A stretch of DNA of 64,000 nt from Streptomyces sp. R21 (GTDB taxonomy: Bacteria; Actinomycetota; Actinomycetes; Streptomycetales; Streptomycetaceae): the NCBI RefSeq assembly GCF_041051975.1, contig NZ_CP163435.1, positions 4,092,001 through 4,156,000 of the forward strand. Reading direction: 5' to 3'. Under the pieces are notes generated by a model. It was given only the letters and a program-made list of their open reading frames with translations, was not told the DNA's origin and did no database searches. A program made the position numbers and the translations under genes. This document shows positions 4,105 to 21,084 of this stretch, piece by piece. Each line of letters starts with the position of its first letter. Within the stretch, counting starts at the first letter, position 1.

Positions 4105-5657
4105 CCGATCGCTCCGAACGCCTCGCCCGCGTCGGGCAGCCCGCCCAAGCCGGGCAGGTAAGTGGTGGTGCCGGTGCTGGTCACGCCGTCGATGTCCGTC
4201 CACGGCAGGACGTAGAGCGCGCCCTTCGGGGAACCGGAGGCCTTGCTGTAGGGCACGCCGACGTAGAGGTTGGTGGCCCCCGCGGTCAGGGCGATGCCGG
4301 TGTAGTCACGAGCGGTGGCCGTTCCCGGCAGGCCGGAGCCGCGGGTGAGGATCTTGTCCGAGGAGCCGACAGACGCGTCCAGGGGACTGAAGATCTGGAC
4401 CGCGCCCACATCCTTGACCGACGACGTGTTGTTGCCGGGGATACCGACCGCGAGGCGGACAGTGGAAGTGCTCGTGACGACGTTCGTGTTCGTGTTAGCG
4501 ATCGCCACCCGCTGGCCGAAGAAGTCCCCGGCGATCGGGGCGCCCTCGACACCGGTGACGTCGGCGTCGATCGCCGCGAGCTCCGTGTACGCCCCAGACG
4601 GCTGGATCCGGATGACCGTGGCGCCACCCGCATCAGCCGTGGCCCCTATGTCCTCGCTCGGAGTGCCGACGGCCAGAAGCGCGTCGGAGTTGTACGTCTG
4701 GTTGCTGGGCCGGTAGCTCGCCATCGAGAGGGAGGAGCCGAAGCTGTCACCCGTCTCGGCGACACCGGAAATGCCCGTTGCGTCCTGGTCGATACCCACG
4801 AGCGGGGCGGGCAGGCCGCCGGACAGGGTGTGACTGAAGACGGTGACACCACCCGCGAAGGTCTTCCCTCCGATCGCCTCGCCCGGCGTGCCGACCGCGA
4901 GGTACCGGTTCGTACCGGCCAGTGAGTAGCCGAAGCGATCGTGCGCCTCGACCTCGCCGGGCACGCCCGGATCCTTCTGGCTCACCGGGACCTTCGTCGT
5001 TCCCTGGACGTACTCGACACAGCCGGCGTCCGGAAACGTCTTGCCGTCCACGGTCACGTTCTCGCCGGGCACTCCGACGGCCAGGTAGGGCGCACCACCG
5101 GAGGTGTCACCCGCCTTCACCGCGTAGCCGAACCAGTCGTACGCCTCTGTGGTCGTCGTCGCGTCGAGCTGTGTCTGGGTGTAACCCTCGATCGCGGAGC
5201 CCGCACCGATACCGGTGGGCATGCCGTGGATCACATAGATCGCCCCGGCGTCGACGAGCTGAGTGCCGTCCTTCGCGACGTCCTCGTACGGGGCGCCGAC
5301 CACCAGGTCCGTGCAGCCGTCGCCGTCGGCGTCGTACGTCGAGCGGGAGAAGCCGAAGTGGTCGCCGGCCTCGGGGGTGGCGTCCATGCCGGTGGTCGCC
5401 TGCGAGATCTCGAAGACGCCCTTGCCGCCACCGAGCACCACACGCACCAGGCCTGCTCCCTTGGCCCCGCTCACTGTGGCGTTCGGGTCCGGAATGACCG
5501 TGTCCACAACGCTGTCACCGTTGAAGTCGGTCGCTGTTCCTGCCGTGCATGTGGCAGCTGCGGCTTGGGGCGACCCAAGCGAGACAAGCCCTACTGCCAC
5601 GACGAAAGCGCTTGCCAGAACGACCGGTAGCCCCGCCGATCGTGTACGCGTACGCAC
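4101..5657 (-). CDS. Secreted FG-GAP (integrin alpha-like beta-propeller) protein
   Basis: About 518 residues. The GTG at 5657 sits 6 bases after GAGGGG and begins a clean signal peptide (RTRTR, then LPVVLASAFVVAVGLVSLG, cleavage near QAAAA). An upstream in-frame TTG at 5693 has weaker support. The body holds about seven FG-GAP repeats; each shows a D-rich Ca-binding loop (DFNGDSVVD, DADGDGCTD) and a following GxPxE/D-D motif, typical of a calcium-stabilised extracellular beta-propeller. It is the first gene of the series, driven by a strong TTGACA-type promoter, and its stop overlaps the LamG start. A role in surface adhesion, or as a scaffold for the downstream exoproteins, is inferred from fold and context. 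Confidence 0.85.
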   Translation of the reverse strand: MRTRTRSAGLPVVLASAFVVAVGLVSLGSPQAAAATCTAGTATDFNGDSVVDTVIPDPNATVSGAKGAGLVRVVLGGGKGVFEISQATTGMDATPEAGDHFGFSRSTYDADGDGCTDLVVGAPYEDVAKDGTQLVDAGAIYVIHGMPTGIGAGSAIEGYTQTQLDATTTTEAYDWFGYAVKAGDTSGGAPYLAVGVPGENVTVDGKTFPDAGCVEYVQGTTKVPVSQKDPGVPGEVEAHDRFGYSLAGTNRYLAVGTPGEAIGGKTFAGGVTVFSHTLSGGLPAPLVGIDQDATGISGVAETGDSFGSSLSMASYRPSNQTYNSDALLAVGTPSEDIGATADAGGATVIRIQPSGAYTELAAIDADVTGVEGAPIAGDFFGQRVAIANTNTNVVTSTSTVRLAVGIPGNNTSSVKDVGAVQIFSPLDASVGSSDKILTRGSGLPGTATARDYTGIALTAGATNLYVGVPYSKASGSPKGALYVLPWTDIDGVTSTGTTTYLPGLGGLPDAGEAFGAIG

Positions 5658-5727
5658 ACCCCACCCCTCGATCCCACCCCCGGACGGACACAACCCGGCC
5701 CATCCTGTGAAAGTTGTAAGGGATGAC

Positions 5728-5956: not shown

Positions 5957-6058
5957 CACAGTACAATCGGCACCTTTCCCCAAAGCGGCTCATGAATTCG
6001 ATTTAAGGATTCCATCCAAGAGACGGGGCGTGCCCCGTATTACTTGGAGAGCACGACG

Positions 6059-8077
6059 ATGGCCACGCCCACCGTTTCGGTGATTATTGCCGCCTACAAC
6101 GCGATGCCCTATTTGACGCGCTGCATTTCCTCCGTTGCCGAGCAAAGCATCGGTCAGCGCGAGTTGGAGATCGTCGTCGTGGACGACGGCTCAACCGACG
6201 GCACAGCAACGGAACTTGAGCGGCTGACCAGGGTGTACCCAGGGTTGCTGGACGTCGTCCGACAGGAAAACTCGGGCGGCCCCTCCGCGCCCCGCAATGT
6301 CGGACTCGATCGCGCCCAGGGCCGGTTCGTGTTCTTCCTGGACGCCGACGACTATCTGGGGCCAGAAGCTCTGGAACGCATGGTTGCGGCTGCCGAGAAG
6401 AACAACACCGATGTCGTACTGGGCAAGGTGGTGGGAGTGGGCGGCCGAGGGGCGCCTGTGACGATGTTCCGTCGCAATCGGGCGCGGACGGACGTCTTCA
6501 GCTCACGCGCCTACTGGACCCTCAACCCCATGAAGCTCTTCCGCCGCGACTTGCTGGAGCGGCACCGGCTGCGCTTTCCGACCGATCTGTCCATCGGCGA
6601 GGACCAGCCATTCGTGGCCGCGGCGTACCTGAACGCTGCGGGGATCTCCATCCTCGCTGACTACGACTGCCTGTTCTGGGTCCATCGGGACGACGACGGC
6701 AACATCACGAAGCGCACCTCCGGTTCGGAGCCCCGCCTGCGCTTCCTCCCCCGCATGGTCGACCTGATCCTCGAGAACGTGCCGCCGGGCCCCGGACGTG
6801 ACCACCTCGCCCACCGGCATCTGACCGTCGATGTGCTGGAGCTCCTCCGCGACCACCTGGTTCTGGAACCCCGCGAGATCCAGCAGAAGACGCTCGCCCG
6901 CCTCGCCGAGACCATCGCCCCTCTTTGCCACGAGGGCCTGCGCGAGCAGCTCTCGGCGATGGCCTGGCTTCGACTGCACCTCATACGGAACGAGATGCTC
7001 GACGAGGTCCTTGAACTTGTCCGCTTCGAGCAGGAGTTGAAGCGGACCGGTGGGGCCACACCGGTCGCCGTCGAGGACGGCCGCGCCTACGCCCGGTACC
7101 CGTACTTCCGCGACCCGGAACGCGCCATACCCGACGAGTGCTACGACGTCACCGACCAGCTGAGTCTGCGCCACCAGGTGACCCGCGCCGAAATGCGCGA
7201 CGGTGCCTTGCACCTGGCCGGACACGCCTACTTCCACCGGGTCGCGACACATGACGTCACCACCGAACTCATCCTGCGCGAGCGCGAAAGCGGAGCGGAG
7301 TGCCGGCTCCCCGTCACCCATACCGCAACGCCGGGCCTCGGCGCGGACGAGGATCTCGGGGAGTACACGTACGACAAGGCCGGATTCGACGCCACCGTCG
7401 ACATCGCCACCGCTGCCGAAGGCAAGGCGCTGGGCAACGGACTGTGGGACATCTGGCTCGTGGTCGGCGCCCAGGGTCTGTCCCGCGAGGTGCGCATCGG
7501 CAGCAAGCGGGCCGCCGACGTGTCCGGCAAGGCGGCCACTCACATCGTGGACACCGCCGAAGGTCTCCAGACCGTCACGCTCTACACCACCAAGCCGCAC
7601 GGCAACTTCACCCTGGACATCGGCGAGAACAAGCACGAGGTACTGCCGCATCTCGAACTCGACGCGATCGGTTGGAAGGGCGGCATTGCTGCCGAGTTGG
7701 TGGTCACCGGGCGGTGCACGCTCGACTCGTACCCGGATGGCACTCTCACCGTGAGGCTCACCACGAGCGACGGCGCCGGCAGCGAGACGACGGTTGACTT
7801 CCCTGTCACACAGCCTGCGAACGGCGACACGTTCACTGTGGACGTGCCTGTCTCCTCCCTCTCCGCAGGCGTGTGGGGCGGCGAGCTGCGTCTCGCCGGC
7901 TGGACCGTGCCGCTGCTCCCTCTTCCGCAGGATCTGGCCCCGGCCAAGTGGCGTCGACGCGGCCTGCCTTGGTATGCGAAGCCGGTCCCCGCGGTACCGG
8001 GCGATGACGAGTTGTTCGCGCTACAGGTCGCGAAGACCGATCTCGTCAAAGCGATGGTCGGTCGGATGAAGTCGTGA
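6059..8077 (+). CDS. TarS-like family 2 glycosyltransferase (wall polymer glycosylation)
   Basis: 672 residues; the ATG follows GGAGAG seven bases upstream, while the in-frame TTG at 6044 lacks a site. Residues 1-100 form a GT-A fold with VSVIIAAYN, VVVDDGSTDG, SGGPSAPRN and the metal-binding DADDYL; further motifs are GVGGRGAP and the acidic GEDQPF. These motifs and their order match staphylococcal TarS, the enzyme that adds beta-GlcNAc to poly(ribitol phosphate) teichoic acid. The C-terminal third continues that match as a beta-sandwich-like region ending near REVRIGSKR. The enzyme probably uses a UDP-sugar to modify a teichoic acid or similar anionic wall polymer at the cytoplasmic face. 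No transmembrane segment was seen. It stands alone, followed by a lipoprotein gene. The family is fairly sure, the acceptor is not. Confidence 0.8.
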   Translation: MATPTVSVIIAAYNAMPYLTRCISSVAEQSIGQRELEIVVVDDGSTDGTATELERLTRVYPGLLDVVRQENSGGPSAPRNVGLDRAQGRFVFFLDADDYLGPEALERMVAAAEKNNTDVVLGKVVGVGGRGAPVTMFRRNRARTDVFSSRAYWTLNPMKLFRRDLLERHRLRFPTDLSIGEDQPFVAAAYLNAAGISILADYDCLFWVHRDDDGNITKRTSGSEPRLRFLPRMVDLILENVPPGPGRDHLAHRHLTVDVLELLRDHLVLEPREIQQKTLARLAETIAPLCHEGLREQLSAMAWLRLHLIRNEMLDEVLELVRFEQELKRTGGATPVAVEDGRAYARYPYFRDPERAIPDECYDVTDQLSLRHQVTRAEMRDGALHLAGHAYFHRVATHDVTTELILRERESGAECRLPVTHTATPGLGADEDLGEYTYDKAGFDATVDIATAAEGKALGNGLWDIWLVVGAQGLSREVRIGSKRAADVSGKAATHIVDTAEGLQTVTLYTTKPHGNFTLDIGENKHEVLPHLELDAIGWKGGIAAELVVTGRCTLDSYPDGTLTVRLTTSDGAGSETTVDFPVTQPANGDTFTVDVPVSSLSAGVWGGELRLAGWTVPLLPLPQDLAPAKWRRRGLPWYAKPVPAVPGDDELFALQVAKTDLVKAMVGRMKS

Positions 8078-9127: not shown

Positions 9128-10861
9128 TCACAGCTTGTCGATGTCCAGGTTCGCGATCGCCGTCTTCGCGACTTCACGGCCCCGCGCCGTGAAGTCGCCC
9201 TGGCCGGGGTAACTGACCGTGAGCTTGTACATGTTGCCCGCCGAGTTCTTGTAGTAGAAGATCCTCACCTCGCGGGGGCGGGGGTTCTGGCTGTCGGTGG
9301 TCGTGTAGATCACCGTGTTCTCGGCGGCGTCCTTGCCGTGGTACTTGGTCTGCTCCGTGTGCGTCTTCGGGCCCTCCGGCATGTCGAGTTCGTACTCGCC
9401 GCTCTCCTTGAAGTCGCCGTTGTCGGCGTACATTTCGGCGGCGGCGGAGTCCTTGATCTGGTGGCTCGTGTCCTGCGACTTCTTGTCGAGGTTCAGGCCG
9501 ATCCAGATGCTGCCGCTCAGGTCGGTGTACGTCACCCAGTTCTTGTCCGTGCCCGACGCGTCCTTCTCCGGCCTGCCCACCTTGTAGTGCTCGGGTACGG
9601 CGAGGGTCGCGCCCAGTGCCTTCTCGTCGACCTTCTTCCAGCCGTCCGGCAGGGGTCCCGCGAACGGGTCGGCGATCACCAAGTACGCCACCACCGCGGC
9701 CGCCACGATCGCCGCGCCGAGACCGATCAGGGCCTTACGACCGACATGGATGCCCTTGCCGGACGCGGGGGCGGGGGCGCCGGGATCCGCGACCTGAACG
9801 ATCTGTGTCGGAGCCGGAGCCGGCGGCGTGGCCGCCTCCTGGAGCAGATGGCGGACCTGGGCGGCGTTCGGGCGGCGGGACGGGTCCTTGTCGAGCAGGC
9901 CGTTGATGGCCTGGGCGAGGGGGCCCGTCGCCGAAGCGGGCGCCGCGGGCGTGGCATTGAGGACCGACTGGAGCGTGGCCGGGGTGTTGCTGCGGCGGAA
10001 CGGCGAGACGCCCTCCGTAGCCGCGTAGAGCACCACACCGAGCGACCAGAGGTCGGAGGCCGGGCCGGGGCGCTGGCCCAACACCCGTTCCGGCGCGATG
10101 TATTCGGGCGAGCCGACGAAGCCGCCGGTGTCCGTCAGGTTCGTCTCGCCCTCGATCTGGGCGATGCCGAAGTCGGTGAGCACGACGCGGTCGTGGCGGC
10201 CGAGCAGGACGTTGTCGGGCTTGACATCGCGGTGGAGGATTCCCGCCGCGTGCGCCGCCTCCAGCGCGCCGAGCACCTCCAGGCCGACACGCGCCGCCTC
10301 GCGCACCCCGAGCGTGCCCTCCTGGAGCGCGTCGCCCAGGGAGCGGCCGTGGACCAACTCCATGACGATCCAGGGCTGTCCGTCCACGACCGCGACGTCG
10401 TGGACGTTCACGACCGCCGGGTGGTCGAGCCGGGCCGCGGCGCGTGCCTCGCGGCGCATTCGCTCGAAGGCGTTGGAACGTTCACGCTCGGGAAGATGGT
10501 CCGGGACACGGGGTTCCTTGACCGCGACCTCGCGGTCCACCGTCTCGTCCTTGGCCCGCCACACCGTGCCCATGCCGCCGTGGCCGAGCTTCGAGAGCAG
10601 GCGGTAACGACCGGCGATGAGCCGCCCGACGCCGGGGTCGTCCTGCGAGGGCTGCGAGGGTTGCGAGGGCTGTGACGGCGCCTGCGCCGGCCCTTGAGCG
10701 AGCACCTGCTGCTCAGGAACGACCTGTGTAGGCGCGGCATACGGATTGCCCGCGTACGGCACACCCGGCTGCTGGGCCGGCACACCACCCGGCCTCGGCG
10801 GCTGCAGGCCGAAACTCGTTGGCTCGTCGGCTCCGTAGGGGGCTCCCCCGTTGCTGCTCAT
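9128..10861 (-). CDS. Membrane Ser/Thr protein kinase, array member 1
   Basis: About 577 residues. A Pro/Gln-rich N-terminus (about 1-75) precedes a complete Hanks-type kinase domain (about 80-345): LGHGGMGTVW, VAVKEP, HRDVKPDNVLL and LTDFGIAQ are all intact, so it should phosphorylate Ser/Thr. After a proline-rich linker comes one transmembrane segment (KALIGLGAAIVAAAVVAYLV, about 377-397) and an extracytoplasmic domain of about 180 residues (LPDGWKKV, LAVPEHYKVG), with no PASTA repeats. The ATG at 10861 gives a natural start; one at 10873 is possible, and neither has a strong ribosome site. It is last in transcription order of five tandem kinase genes. The equivalent S. coelicolor cluster acts on cell-wall assembly and sporulation. 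Confidence 0.88.
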   Translation of the reverse strand: MSSNGGAPYGADEPTSFGLQPPRPGGVPAQQPGVPYAGNPYAAPTQVVPEQQVLAQGPAQAPSQPSQPSQPSQDDPGVGRLIAGRYRLLSKLGHGGMGTVWRAKDETVDREVAVKEPRVPDHLPERERSNAFERMRREARAAARLDHPAVVNVHDVAVVDGQPWIVMELVHGRSLGDALQEGTLGVREAARVGLEVLGALEAAHAAGILHRDVKPDNVLLGRHDRVVLTDFGIAQIEGETNLTDTGGFVGSPEYIAPERVLGQRPGPASDLWSLGVVLYAATEGVSPFRRSNTPATLQSVLNATPAAPASATGPLAQAINGLLDKDPSRRPNAAQVRHLLQEAATPPAPAPTQIVQVADPGAPAPASGKGIHVGRKALIGLGAAIVAAAVVAYLVIADPFAGPLPDGWKKVDEKALGATLAVPEHYKVGRPEKDASGTDKNWVTYTDLSGSIWIGLNLDKKSQDTSHQIKDSAAAEMYADNGDFKESGEYELDMPEGPKTHTEQTKYHGKDAAENTVIYTTTDSQNPRPREVRIFYYKNSAGNMYKLTVSYPGQGDFTARGREVAKTAIANLDIDKL

Positions 10862-10972
10862 GGCTTCATGCATATCGCGCCAGGAGCCCCTGCTACCACC
10901 CCGGTCGCTTTCCGGTCACACACCCGTGACGCGAGCCACCCGATATCCCCTGCTTGCCGCGATATCTCCCGT

Positions 10973-12655
10973 TTACGACGGTACGAACGTATCCACCGCC
11001 ACGTCGAAGTACTCCCTCGCCTCCCGCACCTTCCCGACCGGCGCCGAGACCCACACGTCGTACATCCGCCCGCCCTCCTCCCAGCAGAGGTCGTACGTGT
11101 GCCGCGCGCCCTCCGCCCTGGTGAAGCCGTCCCAGGTGAACTCCCAGAGAGCGGCGGGATGTTGGCCGTGCGTGGTCTCCGTGACCCGGCCGTCGCGGTA
11201 GCCCGGGTTCGTGGACGGCCCGTCGGCGGCAGCGCGCCGCATCACGCCGGTCGGCCCGCCCTCCTCGGGGTCGGCCACCTTGATGCCGAGGCGGATGACC
11301 TCCCCGGACGACATGTAGAAGGTCCGCTCGCCCTGCGCCACGCGCGTGAACCCCTCGGGCACCGCGAGCGTGAAGCCGTTCGCGTCGGACGCCAGGCGGT
11401 ACCCCGAAGGCGCCGTGCTGTGCGTGGCGGGCGAGGCGTTCGACGAGCGGGTCACCGTCACGGTCGGACCGGGCGTGCTCGCGGAAGGGGACGCGGTGCT
11501 CGGCGTCGTACCGGGCGAAGTGCCCGGCGAGGTGTGCGGTGCCGTACTCGTCGGCGTGCCCCCGTGTCCGCCGCCCCCGTCGTCCTTCATCAGCAGCGCC
11601 GCCGCCGACACGCCCGCCCCGGCCATCGCGGCGACCAGCGCGGCGGCGACGAGGACGGCCCGCGTGGAGCGCTTCGGCGGTGGCTGCGCGGCCCCGGACG
11701 CCTGAGGTCGCGAGATCTGCCGCGTCGGCACGTCCCGCTTCAGCGTGTCCTTCTTCAGTGCGACGCGCTGTGTGGGCGTGTAGCCGGGGGTCCCGGGCGC
11801 CGGACGCGGCGTACGGCCCGTGTCGCGGAAGACCCGCAGCATCCGCTCGGCCTCCGCCGCGTCGAGGCGGCGTTCCGGATCCCGCTCCAGCAATCCTCGT
11901 ACGACGGGAAGGATCGGCCCGGCCTGGGCGGGCGGACGTATCTCGTCGAAGACCACCGCGTGCAGGATGCCGCCCAACGAGTCGCGGCGGAACGGCGATT
12001 CACCGCTCAAGGCCGTGCACAGCAGCGCGCCCAGCGACCACAGGTCGGACTCGGGGCCGGTCCTGACCCCGGACATCCGCTCGGGCGCGGTGTACTCGGG
12101 CGAGCCGACGAACGCGCCGTGCTCGGTGAGCGTCGTCGCGCCCGCGACCTGCGCGATGCCGAAGTCGGTGAGGACGACACGGTCGCCACGGTCGCCGCCC
12201 GCCTCGACCAGGACGTTCGCGGGCTTGATGTCACGGTGCAGGACGCCCGCGTCGTGCGCGCGGCGCAGCGCGCTCAGGAGGTCGATGCCGATCCGGGCGG
12301 CCTCGCGGGCGTCGACGGGACCGCGCCTGGAGATCCGGTCGGCCAGCGAACCGCCGTCGATCAACTCCATGACGATGTACGGCCGTTCGTCCTCCACGAC
12401 GACGTCATGGACGACGATGATGTGCGGGTGGCGCAGCTGCGCGATCGCGCGGGCCTCGCGCAGGGTGCGGTCGCGCTGGAGCCTGGACTCCTGCTCGGAG
12501 AGCGAGTCGTCGAGGGCGATCTCCTTGACGGCGACCTGGCGGCCCAGCAGTTGGTCGGTAGCCCGCCAGACGACGCCCATGCCGCCCCGGCCGATCCTGC
12601 TCTCCAGCCGGTAACGGCCCGCGATGACGCGGACGTTGCCCCCCTCGGTCCCCAT
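10973..12655 (-). CDS. Membrane Ser/Thr protein kinase, array member 2
   Basis: About 560 residues. The kinase domain begins at once (about 8-270) with IGRGGMGVVW, VAVKEI, HRDIKPANVLV and LTDFGIAQ, all intact. A basic Pro-rich linker leads to one transmembrane helix (STRAVLVAAALVAAMAG, about 328-355), a Ser/Thr/Pro-rich spacer (about 360-405) and a C-terminal extracytoplasmic domain that begins GFTLAVPEGFTRV. That opening is shared with array members 3-5, so the external domains are homologous. Three ATGs compete (12667, 12664, 12655); the third gives the most conserved N-terminus (GTEGGNVRV). About 110 bases separate it from member 1. Confidence 0.88.
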   Translation of the reverse strand: MGTEGGNVRVIAGRYRLESRIGRGGMGVVWRATDQLLGRQVAVKEIALDDSLSEQESRLQRDRTLREARAIAQLRHPHIIVVHDVVVEDERPYIVMELIDGGSLADRISRRGPVDAREAARIGIDLLSALRRAHDAGVLHRDIKPANVLVEAGGDRGDRVVLTDFGIAQVAGATTLTEHGAFVGSPEYTAPERMSGVRTGPESDLWSLGALLCTALSGESPFRRDSLGGILHAVVFDEIRPPAQAGPILPVVRGLLERDPERRLDAAEAERMLRVFRDTGRTPRPAPGTPGYTPTQRVALKKDTLKRDVPTRQISRPQASGAAQPPPKRSTRAVLVAAALVAAMAGAGVSAAALLMKDDGGGGHGGTPTSTAPHTSPGTSPGTTPSTASPSASTPGPTVTVTRSSNASPATHSTAPSGYRLASDANGFTLAVPEGFTRVAQGERTFYMSSGEVIRLGIKVADPEEGGPTGVMRRAAADGPSTNPGYRDGRVTETTHGQHPAALWEFTWDGFTRAEGARHTYDLCWEEGGRMYDVWVSAPVGKVREAREYFDVAVDTFVPS

Positions 12656-12788
12656 GCGCCCCATCATGCCGCACCGGACGGATAGCCTCCGGGGCGCCGA
12701 CCCCGCGGCGGCCGCCGACCGGCTTGTATCAGCCGCGTGCGCGACGGCATCCGTTCATCGACTCGGTGCACGCAACGGCGGCTGCTCA

Positions 12789-14513
12789 TCAGCTCGGTGG
12801 GCGCCAGCCGCGCAGGATCGCGTCGAACTGCGGGCGGGTGGTGGCCCAGTCCGCCGCCGGCGCGGACAGGTAGATGGCGTACTCGACGCCGTCACGGCCG
12901 AGGTACGTCTCCTCGATGGCACGGCGCTCGCCCGGGAACTCCGTCTGCTTCGGCAGCGCGGTCCAGGTGAAGTCCCACAGGGAACCGCTGCAGTCGCGGA
13001 AGGTGTTGGACTGCAGACTCACCCGGTTGTAGTCCTGGAGGCGCTGCAACTGCTGCTCCAGGTCGAGCTGGTGCATGTACGGGTTGTCGAAGTCCGGGGA
13101 GTCGTCGATGGCGATGCGGACGAAGTGCTTGCCACCGTCCGGCGTGTAGTCGATCTGGTTGCCGTCGGTCTGCCGCTTCCAGCCCTTGGGCAGGGCGAGG
13201 CTGAATCCTTCGACGTCTTCCTGGCGCTCCCAGTCCTTGGGGACGGCGCCGGCGGGCGCCTTGCTGCTCGTCCCGGAAGGGCCGGTGCTGGGGCTGCCGC
13301 CTGCCGACTCGGAACTCGCCGAGTTCCCGGCGTCCTTGTGCTTCAGGCCGTCCGCGTACTTCATGGCCAGGCCGCCGCCGATACCGACGACCGCCGCGAG
13401 CACGGCCACCAGGGCGATGTTGCGCGCGCGTCTGCGCCCCCGCGACGCGGGAACGGGGAAGGGCGGCGTGTGCGCGGACATGGGCTCGTGCAGCGTCGCA
13501 CCGGGCGGGCCGGATACGCCGGGCATGCCCGGCGCGGGCGTGCCCGGCGAGTGATAGCCCGGCGCCGGATAGCCGGGCATCTGCCGGCCCGGCACATAGG
13601 TGGCCCCACCCGCGCGGCCCGCCGCCGATCCGTGGTCCCGGCCGGTGTCCACATGCTGCGTCGGCACGTACGCCTGCGCCGCCCTCGGCCGTCGCCCCTC
13701 GGCGGCCTCGGCGAGCATCTGCTCGGCCTCCTCCATGCCGGGGCGCCCGGCGGGATCCTTGTGCAGCAGAGCCGAGATGACCGGCCCCAACGCGCCCGCG
13801 TACTGCGGCAGGGCGGGCTCTTCCTCGACCACCGCCTGCATGGTGCTGAGCGGCGAGGTCCGCCGGAACGGCGACCGCCCCTCCACCGCCGTGTACAGCG
13901 TCGCGCCCAGCGCCCACAGGTCGGAGGACGGCCCGGGGTCGTGGCCGCGCACCCGCTCGGGCGCGAGGTAGTCGACCGAGCCGACGATCTCGCCGGTGCG
14001 CGTGATGGTGCTGTCGCCCTCGACCTGCGCGATCCCGAAGTCGGTCAGCAGGACGCGCCGGTCGACGGAGAGGAGTACGTTCCCGGGCTTCACATCGCGG
14101 TGCAGCACACCGGCGGCATGCGCGGCCCGCAGCGCGCGCAGCACCCACAGGCCGATCCGCGCCGCCTCGGCGGGCTCGACGCGCCCCTGCTCCTTGACCT
14201 CGTCGGCCAGCGAGTTGCCCTCGACCAGCTCCATGACGATCCACGGCCGGTTGTCGTGCTCCAGGACGTCGTGCACGGTGACGACGGCCGAGTGGTTGAT
14301 ACGGGCAGCGGCCCGCGCCTCGGCGTGAGTTCGCGCGAGCAGGACCGCCCGGTCACTCTCCGTGACATACAGGGCGGCGGTCAACTCCTTTACGGCGACG
14401 GCTCGGTGGAGCACCTCGTCGTGCGCGCGCCATACGCGGCCCATGCCACCGCTGCCGATCGAGTCGACAAGCCGGTAGCGGCCCGCGAGGAGCAGGCCCT
14501 GCATCTGATTCAC
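12789..14513 (-). CDS. Membrane Ser/Thr protein kinase, array member 3
   Basis: About 574 residues from a GTG at 14513 preceded by GGGGA; an ATG three codons later (14504) is the alternative. The kinase domain (about 5-275) is complete: IGSGGMGRVW, VAVKEL, HRDVKPGNVLL, LTDFGIAQ. A long Pro/Gly-rich cytoplasmic linker (about 280-355, YAPGYHSPG-like) precedes one transmembrane helix (NIALVAVLAAVVGIGGG, about 361-387). The extracytoplasmic domain opens with GFSLALPKGWKRQ and ends YAIYLSAPAADWATTRP; its Tyr/Trp pattern recurs in members 2, 4 and 5. It is probably a cell-envelope signal receptor. Confidence 0.88.
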   Translation of the reverse strand: MNQMQGLLLAGRYRLVDSIGSGGMGRVWRAHDEVLHRAVAVKELTAALYVTESDRAVLLARTHAEARAAARINHSAVVTVHDVLEHDNRPWIVMELVEGNSLADEVKEQGRVEPAEAARIGLWVLRALRAAHAAGVLHRDVKPGNVLLSVDRRVLLTDFGIAQVEGDSTITRTGEIVGSVDYLAPERVRGHDPGPSSDLWALGATLYTAVEGRSPFRRTSPLSTMQAVVEEEPALPQYAGALGPVISALLHKDPAGRPGMEEAEQMLAEAAEGRRPRAAQAYVPTQHVDTGRDHGSAAGRAGGATYVPGRQMPGYPAPGYHSPGTPAPGMPGVSGPPGATLHEPMSAHTPPFPVPASRGRRRARNIALVAVLAAVVGIGGGLAMKYADGLKHKDAGNSASSESAGGSPSTGPSGTSSKAPAGAVPKDWERQEDVEGFSLALPKGWKRQTDGNQIDYTPDGGKHFVRIAIDDSPDFDNPYMHQLDLEQQLQRLQDYNRVSLQSNTFRDCSGSLWDFTWTALPKQTEFPGERRAIEETYLGRDGVEYAIYLSAPAADWATTRPQFDAILRGWRPPS

Positions 14514-14668: not shown

Positions 14669-17389
14669 TCAGCCGGTCACCTGGTACGTCGACGACGCCT
14701 GCTCGTACAGCCGTGTCACCTCGTCCCGTTCGGCCTCCGGCCCGCGCACCTGCACCACGTGGTAGTGGCCGTCGACGATGAGCGCGAGATTGCGTACGTA
14801 CAGCTCGCGGCCCGAGGAGTCCTGCCAGGTGAACTGCCCCTCGGCCATGGTCCGTCCGCCCACGTCGATCCGCCGCATTCCGGAGGACGTGGCCCACGTC
14901 GAGTCGCGGAACGGCTGCAACTCCTGTTCCCTCTCGCGCTGGTAGGCGAGCGGGTCGCTGCCGTAACCGTCCGTGCTGTCCCGGCCGGGTACGACGATCA
15001 GCTCGAAGTCACCGTGCGAGTACACCACTTGGCCGTGGCCGTTCTTCGGCGCCCGGCTCCAGCCGCCGGCCACGGCGACACGGAAGCCCTCGGCGTCCTT
15101 GCGCAGCTTGAAGCCCTGGGCGACGCCGGGGTCGGAGGCCCCCGACGTCGTCGAACCGGACGAGCCGGAGGGGCTCTTGTCGTCGTCGGAGCCGGGGGAG
15201 GTCTGGTCGGGGCGTGGTTGGCTGCCCGCCTTGCCGTCGGCGTCCGTGTCGGAGGACTGCCCGGGGGCCGGGCTCACGGCGCCGGTTCCGGCCCCGTTCG
15301 CGCTGCCCGCACCGGCGCTGGTGCCGGTGCCGGTGCCGGTGCCGGATTCGGCCTTCGGCATGAAGAGCACCGCGTACGCGACTCCGGCGGCCAGCAGGAG
15401 CAGAACCAGCAGGAGCAGGTTGCGGCCCATGCTCCGGGGCCGGTTCGAGGACCGGTTCGGCGCGCTCGGTCGGCTCCTCGTGCTCGGTCGGTTCGGGCGG
15501 TCGCTCCGGGCGCGCTTGTGGCGGGCGTGCGCACTGGTCGCGGGCAGCCCGGCGCGGCGCCTGCGGACGAGCTCGCCCCGTCGCCGTACGATCGGCAGCC
15601 GGCTCGGGTCGACGGGAGGTGCCGCTATGACGTGGGCGCCCGCCTCGGGCTCCGGCGCGGATCGCACGAGGGAGCGCAGCCAGCCGCGCAGTTCCTCGAA
15701 GTCCAGCCGCTCGGTGGGGTCCTGGCGCAGCAGCGACTCCACGACCGGGCGCAGCGGACCGCACTCCTCGGCGAACGCGGGCGGCTCGGCGCACACGAGC
15801 TGCACCAGCTCGGCGGTGTTCTCCTCCGGGTAGGGCGCGTGGCCCTGCACGGCCCGGAAGAGCAGCGCCCCGAGCGCCCAGAGGTCGGTCGCGGGCCCGA
15901 TCGGCGCCGCCAACTGCCAGTTCTCGTGCACCGGTCCGGCCTGCTCGGGCGCCCAGCGCTCGGTCACGGGCCCGATCACGTTCATCCGCGCCTGCCGGGC
16001 ACGCTCGGCGGCGAGGGCGGTGGTGGGGCCGCGACGGGGCGGCGCTCCCACTCCCGTTCCTGCAGCTGCCTCTGGGGTGTCTCCTACGGCGGTGTCCGCG
16101 GCGGCTCCGGCGCCGCGCCCGGCGACGAGTTCGTCCCAGCCTCCGGCCGAGGTCGAACCCGTACCGCCGTTTCCGGTGCCCTCTCCGTTTCCGGTGCCGC
16201 TTCGCGTTCCGGTACCGGGGAGCGCGGGCCGCCCCTGACCGGTGCCGGTGGTACCGGCAGAGCCGACGGAGCCGTTCCAGGTCTGGGTCTGGGTACCGCT
16301 CCAGGAGTCGGTGTGCCCCACTCCGTACGGATCGGCTATCTGCCCCGGGGGCACCGTGGTGTCGCCAACTGCGGGCCGGGGTCCGGGCAGTGCCGCCTGA
16401 CCGCCCCGCTGCTGCTCGTGGATCCGGGCGGCTGCGCGCGCACCGGCGCGGTACGCGGCGATGGCCCCGGCGCGCGCCGCGCGGACGTCCACCTCACCAC
16501 CGGCTTCCAGCGCACGCGGCCCGGAAGCGGCCACGCCCCCACCGGTCGCCTCCACGGCGGGGCCCCCGCGCTCCGCACGAGCCTCGATCGCGGCCCGACG
16601 CGCGGCCTCGGGATCGACAGCCCGCGAACCACCGGGCCTGCCGCCCGTCGCACCGGCCGATCCACCGCGCACCACAGCCGCACCAGAACCTGCACCGGGG
16701 CCCGGACCCGCACCCGCACCCGCACCACCGTGCGCGTCACCGGCTGGCCCCGGCCCCGCGTCGTCCTCGAAGTCCCGTACCGGCACCGGGTCGTACCCGC
16801 ACAGCGCTTCTTCCGCGGCCCCGGCCGCCAGGCCGGTCAGCATCACACGCCCGTCGTCGCAGACGAGCACCGTGCGTACGGTGATGTTCCTGTGCACCCA
16901 CCCGTGCGCGTGCAGCACCCGCAGCGCGGTGAGGACGTCGGCGGCGACCTCGGCGGCGCGATAGGGGCTCAGCGGCTTCTCGGCGAGCAGCGCGGCCAGT
17001 GACCTGGCGGGCACCAACTCGCTGACGATCCACAGCGACCCGCCCTCGGCGAAGACGTCGAAGACCTGGTCGAGCCGGGGGTGGTCGGGTATCTGCGCGG
17101 CGGCCTGGGCCGCCTCGATCGCCCGCCGTACGGCCGGTTCGGTGGGCCGGCGCATGGTCCGCTGGGCCCCTCGGCGCACTCCGCCGTCGCGCGCCACGAA
17201 CCCGTCGGGCAGCCCGTCCGCGTCGAGCACCTCGGCCTCGACCACCTCCGGCAACGGCACCTGCCGGACGAGGACTTCCTGTCCGCTGTAGGTGTCGAAG
17301 GCCCGGGTCTCGGCGAATTCGTACTCGTCCGACGGCGGCAGCGGCAGGCGGTAGCGGTCGGCGAGCACCCGTCCCGCATAGTCGTCCAC
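14669..17389 (-). CDS. Membrane pseudokinase, array member 4
   Basis: About 906 residues; the GTG at 17389 lies four bases after GGGGAGG. The N-terminal region aligns with a Ser/Thr kinase but every catalytic signature is lost: there is no glycine-rich loop (LPLPPSDEYEF), the VAVK lysine is Arg (VLVRQV, about 42), HRD reads HRN (about 161) and DFG reads TGL (about 183). The late-lobe motif TDLWALGALLF (about 500) is kept. A Gly/Ala-rich insert of about 290 residues sits where the activation loop belongs (about 190-480). One transmembrane helix (LLLLVLLLLAAGVAYAVLF, about 653-676) leads to an external domain opening GFRVAVAGGWSRA, as in its neighbours. It is probably a regulator or scaffold for the active kinases rather than an enzyme. 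Confidence 0.87.
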   Translation of the reverse strand: MDDYAGRVLADRYRLPLPPSDEYEFAETRAFDTYSGQEVLVRQVPLPEVVEAEVLDADGLPDGFVARDGGVRRGAQRTMRRPTEPAVRRAIEAAQAAAQIPDHPRLDQVFDVFAEGGSLWIVSELVPARSLAALLAEKPLSPYRAAEVAADVLTALRVLHAHGWVHRNITVRTVLVCDDGRVMLTGLAAGAAEEALCGYDPVPVRDFEDDAGPGPAGDAHGGAGAGAGPGPGAGSGAAVVRGGSAGATGGRPGGSRAVDPEAARRAAIEARAERGGPAVEATGGGVAASGPRALEAGGEVDVRAARAGAIAAYRAGARAAARIHEQQRGGQAALPGPRPAVGDTTVPPGQIADPYGVGHTDSWSGTQTQTWNGSVGSAGTTGTGQGRPALPGTGTRSGTGNGEGTGNGGTGSTSAGGWDELVAGRGAGAAADTAVGDTPEAAAGTGVGAPPRRGPTTALAAERARQARMNVIGPVTERWAPEQAGPVHENWQLAAPIGPATDLWALGALLFRAVQGHAPYPEENTAELVQLVCAEPPAFAEECGPLRPVVESLLRQDPTERLDFEELRGWLRSLVRSAPEPEAGAHVIAAPPVDPSRLPIVRRRGELVRRRRAGLPATSAHARHKRARSDRPNRPSTRSRPSAPNRSSNRPRSMGRNLLLLVLLLLAAGVAYAVLFMPKAESGTGTGTGTSAGAGSANGAGTGAVSPAPGQSSDTDADGKAGSQPRPDQTSPGSDDDKSPSGSSGSTTSGASDPGVAQGFKLRKDAEGFRVAVAGGWSRAPKNGHGQVVYSHGDFELIVVPGRDSTDGYGSDPLAYQREREQELQPFRDSTWATSSGMRRIDVGGRTMAEGQFTWQDSSGRELYVRNLALIVDGHYHVVQVRGPEAERDEVTRLYEQASSTYQVTG

Positions 17390-17580: not shown

Positions 17581-19815
17581 TCACGACTTCGGCTGGAACG
17601 TCTTGGTCAGCGTCTTCCATGTGGCCTTGCGCAGTTCGCTGTCCCACGCCGAGGCCTTCGCCGTGTACATCAGCCCGTACCCGAGGTGGTCGTTGACGAC
17701 GAAACCGCGGTCTATCGACCGGTACTTGGTCCCGCCGTCCGAGTAGGTGAACTCCCAGTCGGCCGTGTTCCAGCCGCGGTAGTTCACCTTCTCTATGCGG
17801 ATGCGGTGGTACTGCGGCCGCACCATGTACCGCTCTTGGTTCTTCCAGTCCGCGACGGGGTCGTCCTTGGGCGTGGTCGTCCAGCCGACCAACAGCTTCT
17901 GCCCGTCGGGACCGGCGAACCGCGCTCCCGCCGCGCCCGTGGACTGGTACTTCCACCCCTTCGGCAGCCCGATCGAGAACCCCTGACCATCCTTGTACGT
18001 CGTCACGGCGGTGTCGTCCGACTCCTTGCCGTCACTGCCGCTACCGGCGTCCGAACCGCCCGACGCGCTCGCACCCGCGCCCGCCGAACTGCCGTCCCCG
18101 CTCTTGTCCGCGTCCGAACCCGTGGCCGAGCCACCCGACTTGTCGCCGCTGTCCGTGTGCGTACCGCCGCCGGCACCCTTGCCCTTGTCCTTGCCACCGC
18201 TTCCGGCGGTGCTCCCGCTGGAGGCCGCGGCCTTGGTGTCGCTTCCCTTGCCGCTCTTCGACGCGTTGTCGTCGTCGCCACCACCGAGCGTGAGGGCGAG
18301 CACGGTCCCTATCACGGCCAGAACCAGGACGACGGCAACGATGACCAACGTCCGCCGCGGCACCACATCCGTCAGCGGCGCCCGCGGAACGGGCCGCGGT
18401 GGCCGCTCAGGAGCCACAGGCCACCCGGACGCAGGCGCGGACGAACCGGCGGAGCCGGCCACTCCCGCCGACCCCGCTGCAGCCGCCGCCCCCGACTTCC
18501 GAGGTTCCTCCGACCTGGCCTTCGCAGCGGCATCGGCCCCGGCCACCGAACCCGACGCCCCGGCTTTCGCCTCAGTGGAAGCAGAGGGAGAAGCAGAGGG
18601 AGAGGGAGGAGCAACGGGAGGAGCAACGGGAGGAGCAACGGGACCCGCAGAGCCCGCAGGCCTTCCAGCGGCACCCGCCCCCTTGGCCCCCGCCCCCTCA
18701 GCCTTCGCGGCGTCGGTCCCTTCCGCCCCCGTGGACGTGGACTTGGCACGCGCCGCCGAGGTGGCCGCGGCCGTCGCCGCCCCGGCCACCGAGGCGGCCT
18801 TCCGCACGGAACGCAGCGCCCCGCGCAACCGGTCCGCCGCCTCTTCGCCCCGCTTCACCCCGGAGCCGCCCGAACTCCCCTTGCCCGGGGCGTCGTCCGG
18901 CACCGGCGGCAGCGCCACGACCTTCGTCGCGTCCGCCGGCTCGGGCTCGGTCTCCTTGGGCTCAGGCGCGTAGATCACTTCGGTGAGCATCGCCCGGGCG
19001 CGCTCGTTGTCGAGCCGCTGCTCGGGGTCCTTGGCCAGCAGCCCGTAGATGACGGTCTTCAGCGGACCCGCGTTCTTCGGCTCCTCCACCGGCTCGGTCA
19101 TCACCGCGGTGAGCGTCGCGATCGCGGACCCCTTGTCGTACGGGGGTACGCCCTCGACGGACGCGTAGAGCAGACCGCCGAGTGACCACAGGTCGGCCGC
19201 GGGCCCGGGCTTGTGGCCGCGCGCCCGCTCCGGCGAGATGTAGGAGGGCGCGCCGACGAGCATGCCGGTCGAGGTGATGGACGGATCGCCCTCGACCTGC
19301 GCGATGCCGAAGTCGGTGAGAACGACCCGGCCGTCCTCGGACATCAGCACGTTCGACGGCTTCACGTCCCGGTGCAGGATGCCCTCGCGGTGCGCGGAGC
19401 GCAGGACGTCGAGTATCGCGAGCCCCACCTCGGCGGCGCGCTTCGGCGTGAGCAGACCGTCCTCGCGGATGACCTCCGCGAGCGACTTGCCCTCGACGAG
19501 CTCCATCACGATCCAGGGCCGGTTGTCCTCGTCGACCACATCGAAGACCGTCACCGCGCCGTTGTTGCGGATCCTGGCGATCGCCTTGGCCTCACGCAAC
19601 GTGCGCGTGATCAGCCGGCGCTTCTCGTCCTCGTCGATGCTCGACGGGAACCGCAGCTCCTTGACGGCGACCGTGCGACCCAGGGTCTCGTCCTCGGCGC
19701 GCCACACCGTGCCCATGCCGCCGCGACCGAGAACGTCCCCCAGCCGGTACCGCCCGGCGAGGAGACGTTCGCTCTTGTCCTGACGGGATGCTCCCGCCCG
19801 CTCCGCCTCCGACAT
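17581..19815 (-). CDS. Membrane Ser/Thr protein kinase, array member 5
   Basis: About 744 residues; the ATG at 19815 is preceded by GAGGGG, with another ATG at 19827. The kinase domain (about 20-285) is intact: LGRGGMGTVW, VAVKEL, HRDVKPSNVLM, LTDFGIAQ. A very long Ala/Ser/Pro-rich cytoplasmic linker (about 290-480) includes a short tandem PVAPPVAPPVAPP stretch, encoded by near-identical 15-base repeats around 18605-18650. One transmembrane helix (TLVIVAVVLVLAVIGTVLAL, about 485-510) is followed by a Gly/Ser/Asp/Lys-rich spacer and an external domain opening GFSIGLPKGWKYQ. It is first in transcription order of the array, probably transcribed from the roughly 200-base gap after 19815. Confidence 0.88.
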   Translation of the reverse strand: MSEAERAGASRQDKSERLLAGRYRLGDVLGRGGMGTVWRAEDETLGRTVAVKELRFPSSIDEDEKRRLITRTLREAKAIARIRNNGAVTVFDVVDEDNRPWIVMELVEGKSLAEVIREDGLLTPKRAAEVGLAILDVLRSAHREGILHRDVKPSNVLMSEDGRVVLTDFGIAQVEGDPSITSTGMLVGAPSYISPERARGHKPGPAADLWSLGGLLYASVEGVPPYDKGSAIATLTAVMTEPVEEPKNAGPLKTVIYGLLAKDPEQRLDNERARAMLTEVIYAPEPKETEPEPADATKVVALPPVPDDAPGKGSSGGSGVKRGEEAADRLRGALRSVRKAASVAGAATAAATSAARAKSTSTGAEGTDAAKAEGAGAKGAGAAGRPAGSAGPVAPPVAPPVAPPSPSASPSASTEAKAGASGSVAGADAAAKARSEEPRKSGAAAAAGSAGVAGSAGSSAPASGWPVAPERPPRPVPRAPLTDVVPRRTLVIVAVVLVLAVIGTVLALTLGGGDDDNASKSGKGSDTKAAASSGSTAGSGGKDKGKGAGGGTHTDSGDKSGGSATGSDADKSGDGSSAGAGASASGGSDAGSGSDGKESDDTAVTTYKDGQGFSIGLPKGWKYQSTGAAGARFAGPDGQKLLVGWTTTPKDDPVADWKNQERYMVRPQYHRIRIEKVNYRGWNTADWEFTYSDGGTKYRSIDRGFVVNDHLGYGLMYTAKASAWDSELRKATWKTLTKTFQPKS

Positions 19816-20031
19816 GCGTCCCCTCATGCAACCCGCCCTGACAGAGCCTCCATTGTCCCTCACCCGACAAGCGCTCAACGCCCAGGGTGCCCCTGGCGCA
19901 CCGACCACCCGGCCCCGATGCACCCCGTCACCGGACGGCTACGCGACCCGTACGGCGCCGCTGACGCGGAGACCGACCGCCACGCGCAGCGCGCCGTCGA
20001 GCATGATGGACCGCGACAAGGGAGGACCGCG

Positions 20032-21084
20032 ATGCCGCTGCCCCGGACACTCCGGACACTGCTGGCCATACCCCTGTCCCTGGCCCTGCTCGGCCTGGCC
20101 CCGGCGGGCTCCCAGGCGCCCGCGCCGCCGACCTCGGACGCCACGCTCGCCCTCCTCGTCACCCGCGGAAAGGCCCCGGCCGCGGCCCTGCTGGCCCGTG
20201 AGGAATCCGGCTCGCGCTTCGCCCGCGCGGGTCACGGAATCGCTCGCGCCGACCACTTCCGCGCCGGCAGCATCACGAAGACGTTCATCGCGACGGTCGT
20301 ACTGCAACTGGCCGACGAGCACCGGCTGTCGCTGTCCGACTCCGTGGACGCCCACCTTCCGGGCCTGGTCCGCGGCGCCGGCAACGACGGCCGCCGTCTG
20401 ACGCTGCGTGCCCTGCTCACCCACACCAGCGGCCTCCACGACTTCACCGCGGACACCGGGGGCACCGTCCCTGTCACCCCGCTTCAGGCCGTACGCATCG
20501 CGCTCACCCATCCCCCGGCCGACCGCGGCCGCTTCGCCTACTCGAACACCAACTACGTCCTGCTCGGCATGGTCGTTCACCAGGTGACCGGCCACTCGTA
20601 CGCCGCCGAGGCCGAGCGCCGCATCATCACTCCCCTCCGTCTGAAGGGCACCTCCTTCCCGGGCGCCCGCTCCTCGCTGCCCTCGCCGCACGGACGCGCC
20701 TACACCGCCGACGGCTCGGACGTCACCGATCTCGACCCGCGCGTGGCCGGCGCGGCGGGCGAGCTGGTCACCACCCTCGACGACCTGGACCGCTTCTACG
20801 CCGCCCTGCTCGGCGGCGAGCTGCTGCCGCCGAGCGGACTGCGCGAGATGCTCAACACCAAGGCCGCACACGGCTCGTACGGCATGGGCCTCTTCCCGGT
20901 GACGCTGCCGTGCGGCACCACGGTGTGGGGACACAACGGCCGGATCTCCGGCAGCTACGTGCGCACCGCGGCCACCGTCGACGGTCGTCGTGTCCTCACC
21001 TTCCGGGTGAACACGGACGGGATCTCAGAACCGGACCTCGAACCCGCCCTGCTCGCCGCCGAGTTCTGCCCCCGCACCCCGTAG
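20032..21084 (+). CDS. Secreted serine hydrolase, beta-lactamase/D-Ala-D-Ala carboxypeptidase fold
   Basis: 350 residues; ATG five bases after GGAGGA. A signal peptide (PRTLRTLLAIPLSLALLGLAP) is followed by the three signatures of the family: S-x-x-K in AGSITKTF (about residue 83), Y-S-N in FAYSNTNY (about 180) and H-N-G in WGHNGRI (about 305). These are the active-site Ser/Lys, Tyr and oxyanion-side triad of class C-type carboxypeptidases and esterases, including streptomycete R61-type enzymes. The length fits. It probably trims peptidoglycan stem peptides outside the cell. It is transcribed divergently from the kinase array and convergent to glpD. Confidence 0.87.
   Translation: MPLPRTLRTLLAIPLSLALLGLAPAGSQAPAPPTSDATLALLVTRGKAPAAALLAREESGSRFARAGHGIARADHFRAGSITKTFIATVVLQLADEHRLSLSDSVDAHLPGLVRGAGNDGRRLTLRALLTHTSGLHDFTADTGGTVPVTPLQAVRIALTHPPADRGRFAYSNTNYVLLGMVVHQVTGHSYAAEAERRIITPLRLKGTSFPGARSSLPSPHGRAYTADGSDVTDLDPRVAGAAGELVTTLDDLDRFYAALLGGELLPPSGLREMLNTKAAHGSYGMGLFPVTLPCGTTVWGHNGRISGSYVRTAATVDGRRVLTFRVNTDGISEPDLEPALLAAEFCPRTP

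Follow-up and report, generated by a model that had tools for sequence, protein, structure and literature searches.

A conserved pseudokinase with ActPs2-type features, predicted from sequence, in the five-gene kinase array of Streptomyces

The window analysed here is a 64,000-nucleotide stretch of contig NZ_CP163435.1 from Streptomyces sp. R21, and its subject is one gene of a five-gene Ser/Thr kinase array on the minus strand. We refer to this pseudokinase gene (protein P0001) as PSK, and to the four neighbouring active kinases as K1, K3, K4 and K5. K1 lies upstream of PSK on the same strand, 191 base pairs (bp) away, and K3, K4 and K5 lie downstream. A first-pass annotation of this DNA had called PSK the fourth member of the array, which is correct by plus-strand coordinate, but in the order of transcription it is gene 2 of 5.

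Orthologues were compared in two sets of Streptomyces loci. The close set comprises the best 80 of 524 relatives from a scan of genome contigs, all of them Streptomyces; 79 are complete, and the incomplete one, L076, was left out of site counts. Because this set was picked by similarity, the motif test was redone on evenly drawn genomes, giving an even sample of 58 loci (51 from a genus sample and 7 from a family sample; six PSK-bearing genomes of the genus sample, G117, G118, G129, G132, G139 and G163, were left out). The features of PSK are as follows, model confidence being given as the predicted local distance difference test score (pLDDT).

14669-17389, minus: PSK (P0001), SCO4776-type pseudokinase gene, 906 amino acids, GTG start (open frame and orthologues)
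17249-17389, minus: start of the N-terminal lobe, residues 1-47, with the glycine loop replaced by LPPSDEYE
17264-17266, minus: Arg42 at the beta3 Lys position; R in 78/79 close and 55/58 even-sample Streptomyces orthologues
16886-16894, minus: HRN (residues 166-168) for HRD; 79/79 and 58/58 Streptomyces
16874-16876, minus: Arg172 of the catalytic loop; R in 79/79 close and 57/58 even-sample orthologues, varied in other genera
16826-16834, minus: GLA (residues 186-188) for DFG (orthologue alignments)
16031-16780, minus: Gly/Ala-rich activation-loop insert, residues 204-453 (alignment; low pLDDT; fast evolving)
16421-16489, minus: conserved block in the insert, residues 301-323, DVRAARAGAIAAYRAGARAAARI; predicted helix, low confidence
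15650-15961, minus: C-lobe from ERWAPEQ, residues 477-580 (orthologue alignment and structure model)
15356-15424, minus: predicted transmembrane helix, residues 656-678
14675-15115, minus: external domain with a PsbP/Mog1-like fold, residues 759-905 (pLDDT mostly >90; Z 13.6 to cyanobacterial PsbP)

The longest open frame at PSK begins at its 5'-most start, 17488, and spans 939 amino acids. We set the start at the GTG at 17387-17389 because conservation begins there and the column is GTG in 79/79 complete close orthologues, most of which have a GGGGGAGGC-type ribosome site before it; the frame of 906 residues described on first pass agrees with this start. An antisense plus-strand frame of 747 amino acids (14759-17002) was regarded as a shadow frame, because the minus-strand frame is conserved over the genus, has a low ratio of nonsynonymous to synonymous divergence (pN/pS) and shows coding-like guanine-plus-cytosine (GC) content (0.77/0.60/0.87 at the three codon positions).

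The four neighbours match nearly the whole Pkinase profile at 1e-43 to 1e-49, and PSK matches it at 3.4e-14, over profile positions 53-140 only. Aligned with K1, K3, K4 and K5, PSK lacks the GxGxxG glycine loop, carries Arg42 in place of the beta3 Lys, and reads HRNxTxxT where the neighbours read HRDxKxxN in the catalytic loop. DFG is replaced in register by GLA, with the preceding LT retained; one of the alignments used for this point comprised 26/79 close orthologues, the window gene and its four neighbours. Most members of the ActPs2 family of pseudokinases are described as having a deletion in DFG; in PSK the motif is lost, but GLA aligns there without a gap. PSK thus lacks the beta3 Lys, the HRD Asp and the DFG Asp expected of an active Hanks-type kinase, and all catalytic motifs are kept in the four neighbours. 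The first-pass annotation had recognized the active neighbours and the loss of the glycine loop, the beta3 Lys (to Arg) and the HRD Asp (to Asn); it was also right that DFG is gone, but had read the replacement as TGL, one residue out of register.

These losses are fixed over the genus. GLA is found in 79/79 close orthologues and 58/58 of the even sample, and the beta3 position of the latter holds R in 55, H, G and Q in one each, and K in 0. Two genes that seemed broken, L223 (genome G126) and L204 (G156), contain a run of N or an ambiguous base joining unrelated sequence; both remain in the even-sample motif, selection and neighbour counts. PSK scored at least 216 bits in 57/60 other genomes of the genus sample. 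In two of the three genomes without it, K1 sits at the edge of a contig and the gene that follows may simply not have been assembled; the third lacks a close K1 as well. At G143:C623, G165:C1437, L223 and L204 the assembly has a gap, an ambiguous join or the end of a contig in or beside PSK, and PSK may be undercounted in draft genomes, perhaps through its GC-rich insert. One Streptomyces genome has a second, diverged pseudokinase-like match (G138:C1:7100331-7100900; 50% identity, 150 bits). Orthologues with intact motifs, a check named beforehand, were absent both from Streptomyces (79/79 and 58/58 lacking them) and from the other genera described below (20/20 and 19/19). Since no examined orthologue has intact motifs, PSK is, as judged from these alignments, a conserved pseudokinase and not a case of recent decay.

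Median pN/pS was taken over 250 random pairs from the 79 close loci and 300 pairs from the 58 even-sample loci. The three kinase parts of PSK gave 0.086, 0.123 and 0.069 in the close set, where the neighbours measured gave 0.169 (K1, 76 loci), 0.250 (K3, 71) and 0.335 (K4, 71). Corresponding values in the even sample were 0.189, 0.205 and 0.154 for PSK, 0.256 for K1 (55 loci) and 0.365 for the next kinase downstream (46). The PSK kinase domain is no less constrained than the active neighbours measured, small differences being uncertain as the compared stretches differ in extent. The external domain is looser (0.414 in the close set, 0.688 in the even sample).

The full-length model of PSK is poor overall (mean pLDDT 55.7), with the external domain mostly >90. 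That domain superimposes on PsbP/Mog1-type folds (Z 13.6, 3.1 Å over 142 residues), and its structural matches include mycobacterial LpqN and MTC28. Profile comparison relates it to the external domain of K3 (probability 95.9%), more weakly to that of K1 (73.4%) and partially to that of K4 (78.5%), with no match to that of K5. For the kinase part we used a divergent orthologue, L073, whose model has a mean pLDDT of 67.6. A two-lobed kinase fold is predicted to be kept in PSK, because this model reaches Z 24.1 to Mycobacterium tuberculosis PknA and PknB with kinase blocks mostly at 77-97. Persistence of the membrane helix and external domain, as first annotated, is likewise borne out by prediction.

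Two inserts interrupt the kinase domain. Between the end of the DFG region and the APE region PSK has 280 residues versus 12 in the active neighbours, and Gly makes up 25% and Ala 21% of residues 204-453; the insert and its composition had been noted before, at roughly 290 residues, and the excess is nearer ~270. This span varies from 183 to 473 (median 290) in the window and the 79 close orthologues, and from 155 to 711 (median 325) in the 58 even-sample loci, two of which have assembly faults. The second insert, from beta3 to alphaC, is 42 residues versus 14 in the active neighbours (+28; 35-49 in the window and close set). The large insert evolves fast (pN/pS 0.66 in the close set, 0.85 in the even sample). 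Within it, residues 301-323 of the close set have a pN/pS of 0.067, their silent divergence (pS 0.485) being unremarkable; in the even sample the value is 0.325, versus 0.928 for residues 204-300. A strict form of the pattern occurs in 51/58 even-sample loci and a variant in one more; the other six comprise one partial block, one run of N and four loci without it. Both structure models predict a helix here, at low confidence; this conserved Arg/Ala element is ~22 residues long. Thr457, in GPTTALAAERARQARM, is nearly invariant (P0001 and 66/79 complete close orthologues aligned).

Beyond Streptomyces, we examined an even family sample of 61 genomes in 17 genera, in which PSK was present in 10/10 Streptomyces and the same slot was occupied in other genera. 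L150, L152, L156 and L158 were left out of the tallies as odd or weak; the weakest orthologues counted (81-84 bits) were assigned by their place in the array. A first group, 20 genomes of 8 genera, has HRN in 20/20, R (15) or H (5) at beta3 and never Lys, and 41-150 residues in the insert region. Its membrane helix is followed by 170-219 residues in 19/20, the other being cut by a contig end; a few of these values are lower bounds, from loci that stop inside the gene. A second group, 19 genomes of 5 further genera, has a shorter protein without the large insert (24-44 residues there) or the external domain. Beta3 is E in 7, D in 6 and another residue in 6 (one R), again never Lys; the HRD Asp is replaced in 19/19, by N in 18, and the membrane helix ends 2-8 residues from the C-terminus in 18/19. 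The DFG Asp is Gly in register in 39/39 orthologues of both groups, an Asp stands one position before it (as in LDGL) in 8/20 and 1/19, and Arg172 is Arg in 5/20 and 2/19.

Eight family genomes lack an orthologue (best score at most 74.2 bits): three of genus g2, four of g5 and one of g8. Those of g2 and g5 have no close K1 (best 53-56% identity). Outside the family PSK was found in none of the 56 genomes sampled from the class (top score 72.5 bits), which is a sample and not proof; four Streptomyces in the class sample scored at least 124.8 bits. In a tree of 48 orthologue rows and that of the window, a branch with a support of 91 by the Shimodaira-Hasegawa-like approximate likelihood ratio test separates the 49 PSK rows from all others, PSK standing beside PknB-like kinases; the tree included own-genome kinases for 26 of 30 loci (of 55 matches) and the four window kinases as window copies. 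One orthologue, L144 of genus g10, has HRN, Thr at beta3 and 45 residues after the membrane helix, and branches first among the PSK rows as drawn. Judged from these sequences, what the orthologues share is a pseudokinase domain anchored in the membrane. Within the samples only Streptomyces carries the large insert, with 150 residues at that place in one orthologue of another genus, and the external domain, absent in one branch, was either gained or lost.

The kinases of the array, with their positions in the corresponding S. coelicolor cluster, are these.

17581-19923, minus: K1, active kinase upstream of PSK and its constant neighbour, SCO4775/PkaH position (Pkinase match and alignment)
12789-14513, minus: K3, active kinase, SCO4777/PkaD position (start uncertain, about 14504-14513)
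10973-12667, minus: K4, active kinase, SCO4778/PkaI position (Pkinase match and alignment)
9128-10873, minus: K5, active kinase, SCO4779/PkaJ position (Pkinase match and alignment)

An active kinase lies both at most 500 bp upstream and at most 800 bp downstream of PSK in 74/80 close loci. In the even sample one is found within 700 bp upstream in 57/58 loci (54 labelled K1, 3 K3), and within 1200 bp downstream in 46/58, two of the other 12 having assembly faults. For other genera, 30 of 43 loci had flanks long enough to be counted, and the upstream kinase is labelled K1 in 25/30; of the remaining five, two are K3 or K4, one lies at a contig end and two are K1 by layout. The constant pair is K1 and the pseudokinase, and a fifth of Streptomyces loci lack the downstream kinases.

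Several plus- and minus-strand genes flank the array. Between K1 and a glpD-like gene lies 19213-21084 (plus), the second half of which resembles a class C beta-lactamase/serine hydrolase (motifs by eye). Adjoining the array, 6044-8077 (plus) encodes a glycosyltransferase whose linker and C-terminal domains are TarS-like and which may be a wall teichoic acid enzyme. Further along, 4101-5693 (minus) encodes an FG-GAP repeat protein, beside a secreted-looking frame (by eye) of 1262 amino acids at 415-4203 (minus).

The S. coelicolor array consists of SCO4775 (pkaH), SCO4776, SCO4777 (pkaD), SCO4778 (pkaI) and SCO4779 (pkaJ) (PMC4416010). The PSK orthologue there is SCO4776 by elimination from gene order, and not by comparison with the SCO4776 sequence itself: the pseudokinase could only be gene 2 or gene 4, and the product of gene 4, PkaI, autophosphorylates (PMC4416010). 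A second copy of SCO4776 yields aberrant, vancomycin-sensitive spores, which its authors attributed to overbalanced kinase activity, and second copies of the other array genes except pkaI give the same spore defect (PMC4416010). SCO4776 protein is among those detected in PMC9739823, which also reports MreC as a substrate of PkaH and PkaI. A search by titles and abstract openings, covering few subscription papers, found none that names SCO4776 a pseudokinase.

Together, these observations lead us to favour, as the probable reading, that PSK is a pseudokinase of the ActPs2 kind that serves as a non-catalytic membrane regulator or scaffold of the upstream kinase (the PkaH/SCO4775 position). PSK would keep the kinase fold and membrane helix, and phosphate transfer by the standard mechanism would not be expected of it. 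Its task would be to hold the PkaH-position kinase, joined in many Streptomyces by the remaining kinases of the array, at the membrane site where spore-wall synthesis proteins would be phosphorylated. The loss of catalytic residues, selection, fold, anchoring and gene pairing come from sequence or prediction; inactivity in vitro, direct binding to PkaH and the direction of any regulation are what we infer from them. The first-pass annotation had PSK regulating or scaffolding its four neighbours at the envelope. A role of this type is supported indirectly by the constant pairing, the membrane helix, purifying selection and the published sporulation phenotype, but the emphasis on four neighbours and an envelope domain is probably too broad, because only the upstream kinase is constant and five genera lack the external domain.

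Several points weigh against this reading. At three columns that we take to match the PknB dimer face (the PknB numbering and its correspondence to PSK being our assumption), the Arg is kept everywhere, but the Leu has become Ser or another residue, and the Asp is His in 7/58 Streptomyces and seldom kept in the tail-anchored genera. The structure listing for the L073 model names the PknB mutants L33D and D76A. A PknB-like back-to-back dimer is therefore not clearly supported by this mixed sequence pattern, and we do not claim one. The g8 genome without PSK (G022) has K1 at 81% identity, so K1 can persist without PSK. In S. coelicolor the five array genes are transcribed separately; the pkaH transcript was not detected and SCO4776 is constitutive, a poor fit to an obligate pair, although the authors note another dataset with pkaH highly expressed (PMC4416010). 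A library screen with PkaI names PkaA and PkaD among kinases, and not SCO4776 (PMC4416010).

Two alternatives are unlikely to about the same degree. In one, the neighbouring kinases phosphorylate PSK on its insert, the edge of its activation segment or its juxtamembrane tail, and the phosphate then draws in a cell-wall protein, such as one with an FHA domain, as with MviN. The MviN precedent (PMC12599244), the long variable insert with its conserved blocks, the nearly invariant Thr457, the membrane helix and the spore-envelope phenotype (PMC4416010) are consistent with such a phosphorylated scaffold; however, the large insert is absent from orthologues of other genera, and no PSK phosphosite is known to us, no search for one having been made. 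In the other, PSK is a non-catalytic switch whose conformation is set by bound adenosine triphosphate (ATP). An AlphaFold3 model of ActPs2 proposes that R42 and R177 bind ATP phosphates (PMC12599244); P0001 Arg42 bears the same number, and Arg172 would correspond to R177. Both are near-invariant in Streptomyces, but outside the genus Arg172 is kept in only 5/20 and 2/19, and the Arg42 position is His in 5/20 and not Arg in 18/19. Because beta3 is often acidic and Arg172 mostly lost there, Arg-based ATP binding is unlikely as the general function. Either role may coexist in Streptomyces with the regulator or scaffold role.

It is improbable that PSK is instead an unconventional active enzyme on a kinase fold, whether through a WNK-like substitute for the Lys or through a different transfer of the SidJ or SelO type, precedents named in PMC12599244. 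The pseudo-active site is very strongly conserved, and the Asp that precedes the lost DFG Asp by one position in 8/20 and 1/19 could suit such an enzyme, but the HRD Asp, the catalytic-loop Lys and Asn and the beta3 Lys are replaced in all groups, as is the DFG Asp in register, and the glycine loop is gone in the aligned rows. Recent decay of an ordinary kinase can be set aside almost with certainty, as the catalytic losses are fixed genus-wide and pN/pS is low over the genus.

To return to the regulator or scaffold reading, a more specific form of it is possible, and we offer it tentatively: PkaH and PSK would form a kinase-pseudokinase pair dedicated to each other and confined to the Streptomyces family, with an ATP-independent anchored core to which Streptomyces later added a disordered loop bearing the Arg/Ala helix for partner docking, a role that we likewise infer. 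If so, the sporulation defect ascribed to overbalanced kinase activity of SCO4776 would reflect dosage and not catalysis. Of the five "kinases" whose effects on spores have been studied, one probably acts without phosphorylating anything. These comparisons also tie ActPs2 to a gene that already shows a phenotype in a model organism, sits beside a fixed neighbour and has had its constraint measured, and they turn the question of its function into simple tests in S. coelicolor.

The cluster of SCO4776 is the same five-gene array as that of PSK (PMC4416010); SCO4776 is treated there as a eukaryotic-type kinase, the terms "pseudo" and "active site" occurring 0 times in the main text. The pseudokinase domain of MviN (ActPs3), like PSK, is actinobacterial and tied to the membrane, MviN also being tied to cell-wall synthesis, but its activation loop carries a deletion (PMC12599244), whereas PSK has a large insertion and no flippase part. 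Receptor kinases of the PknA/PknB type resemble PSK in kinase fold (Z 24.1), membrane helix and external domain. They are catalytic, whereas PSK is without catalytic residues, and its external domain is PsbP/Mog1-like and not PASTA, the type carried by PknB. The closest likeness is to ActPs2, one of seven bacterial pseudokinase families described, most of them without known function (O'Boyle et al. 2025, PMC12599244). Its published representative is WP_053198479.1, and the published tree places it as a subfamily of the Act2 kinases. Its members have beta3 Arg and HRN, most have a DFG deletion, and about 90% each have a beta3-alphaC insert of ~32 amino acids and an activation-loop extension of ~250; these inserts are called disordered and their significance unclear (PMC12599244). 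PSK shares the beta3 Arg, HRN, a degenerate DFG, both inserts, the C-terminal membrane helix and the actinobacterial origin, although its DFG looks substituted in our alignments and not deleted; by these sequence features it matches the ActPs2 type and does not appear to be a new kind. What is new here, beyond the description of ActPs2 in the parts of PMC12599244 covered, is its genomic setting with a constant upstream neighbour, the insert-free and mostly tail-anchored orthologues of five genera, in which an acidic or other residue mostly takes the place of the beta3 Lys, and the conserved predicted helix within a fast-evolving insert.

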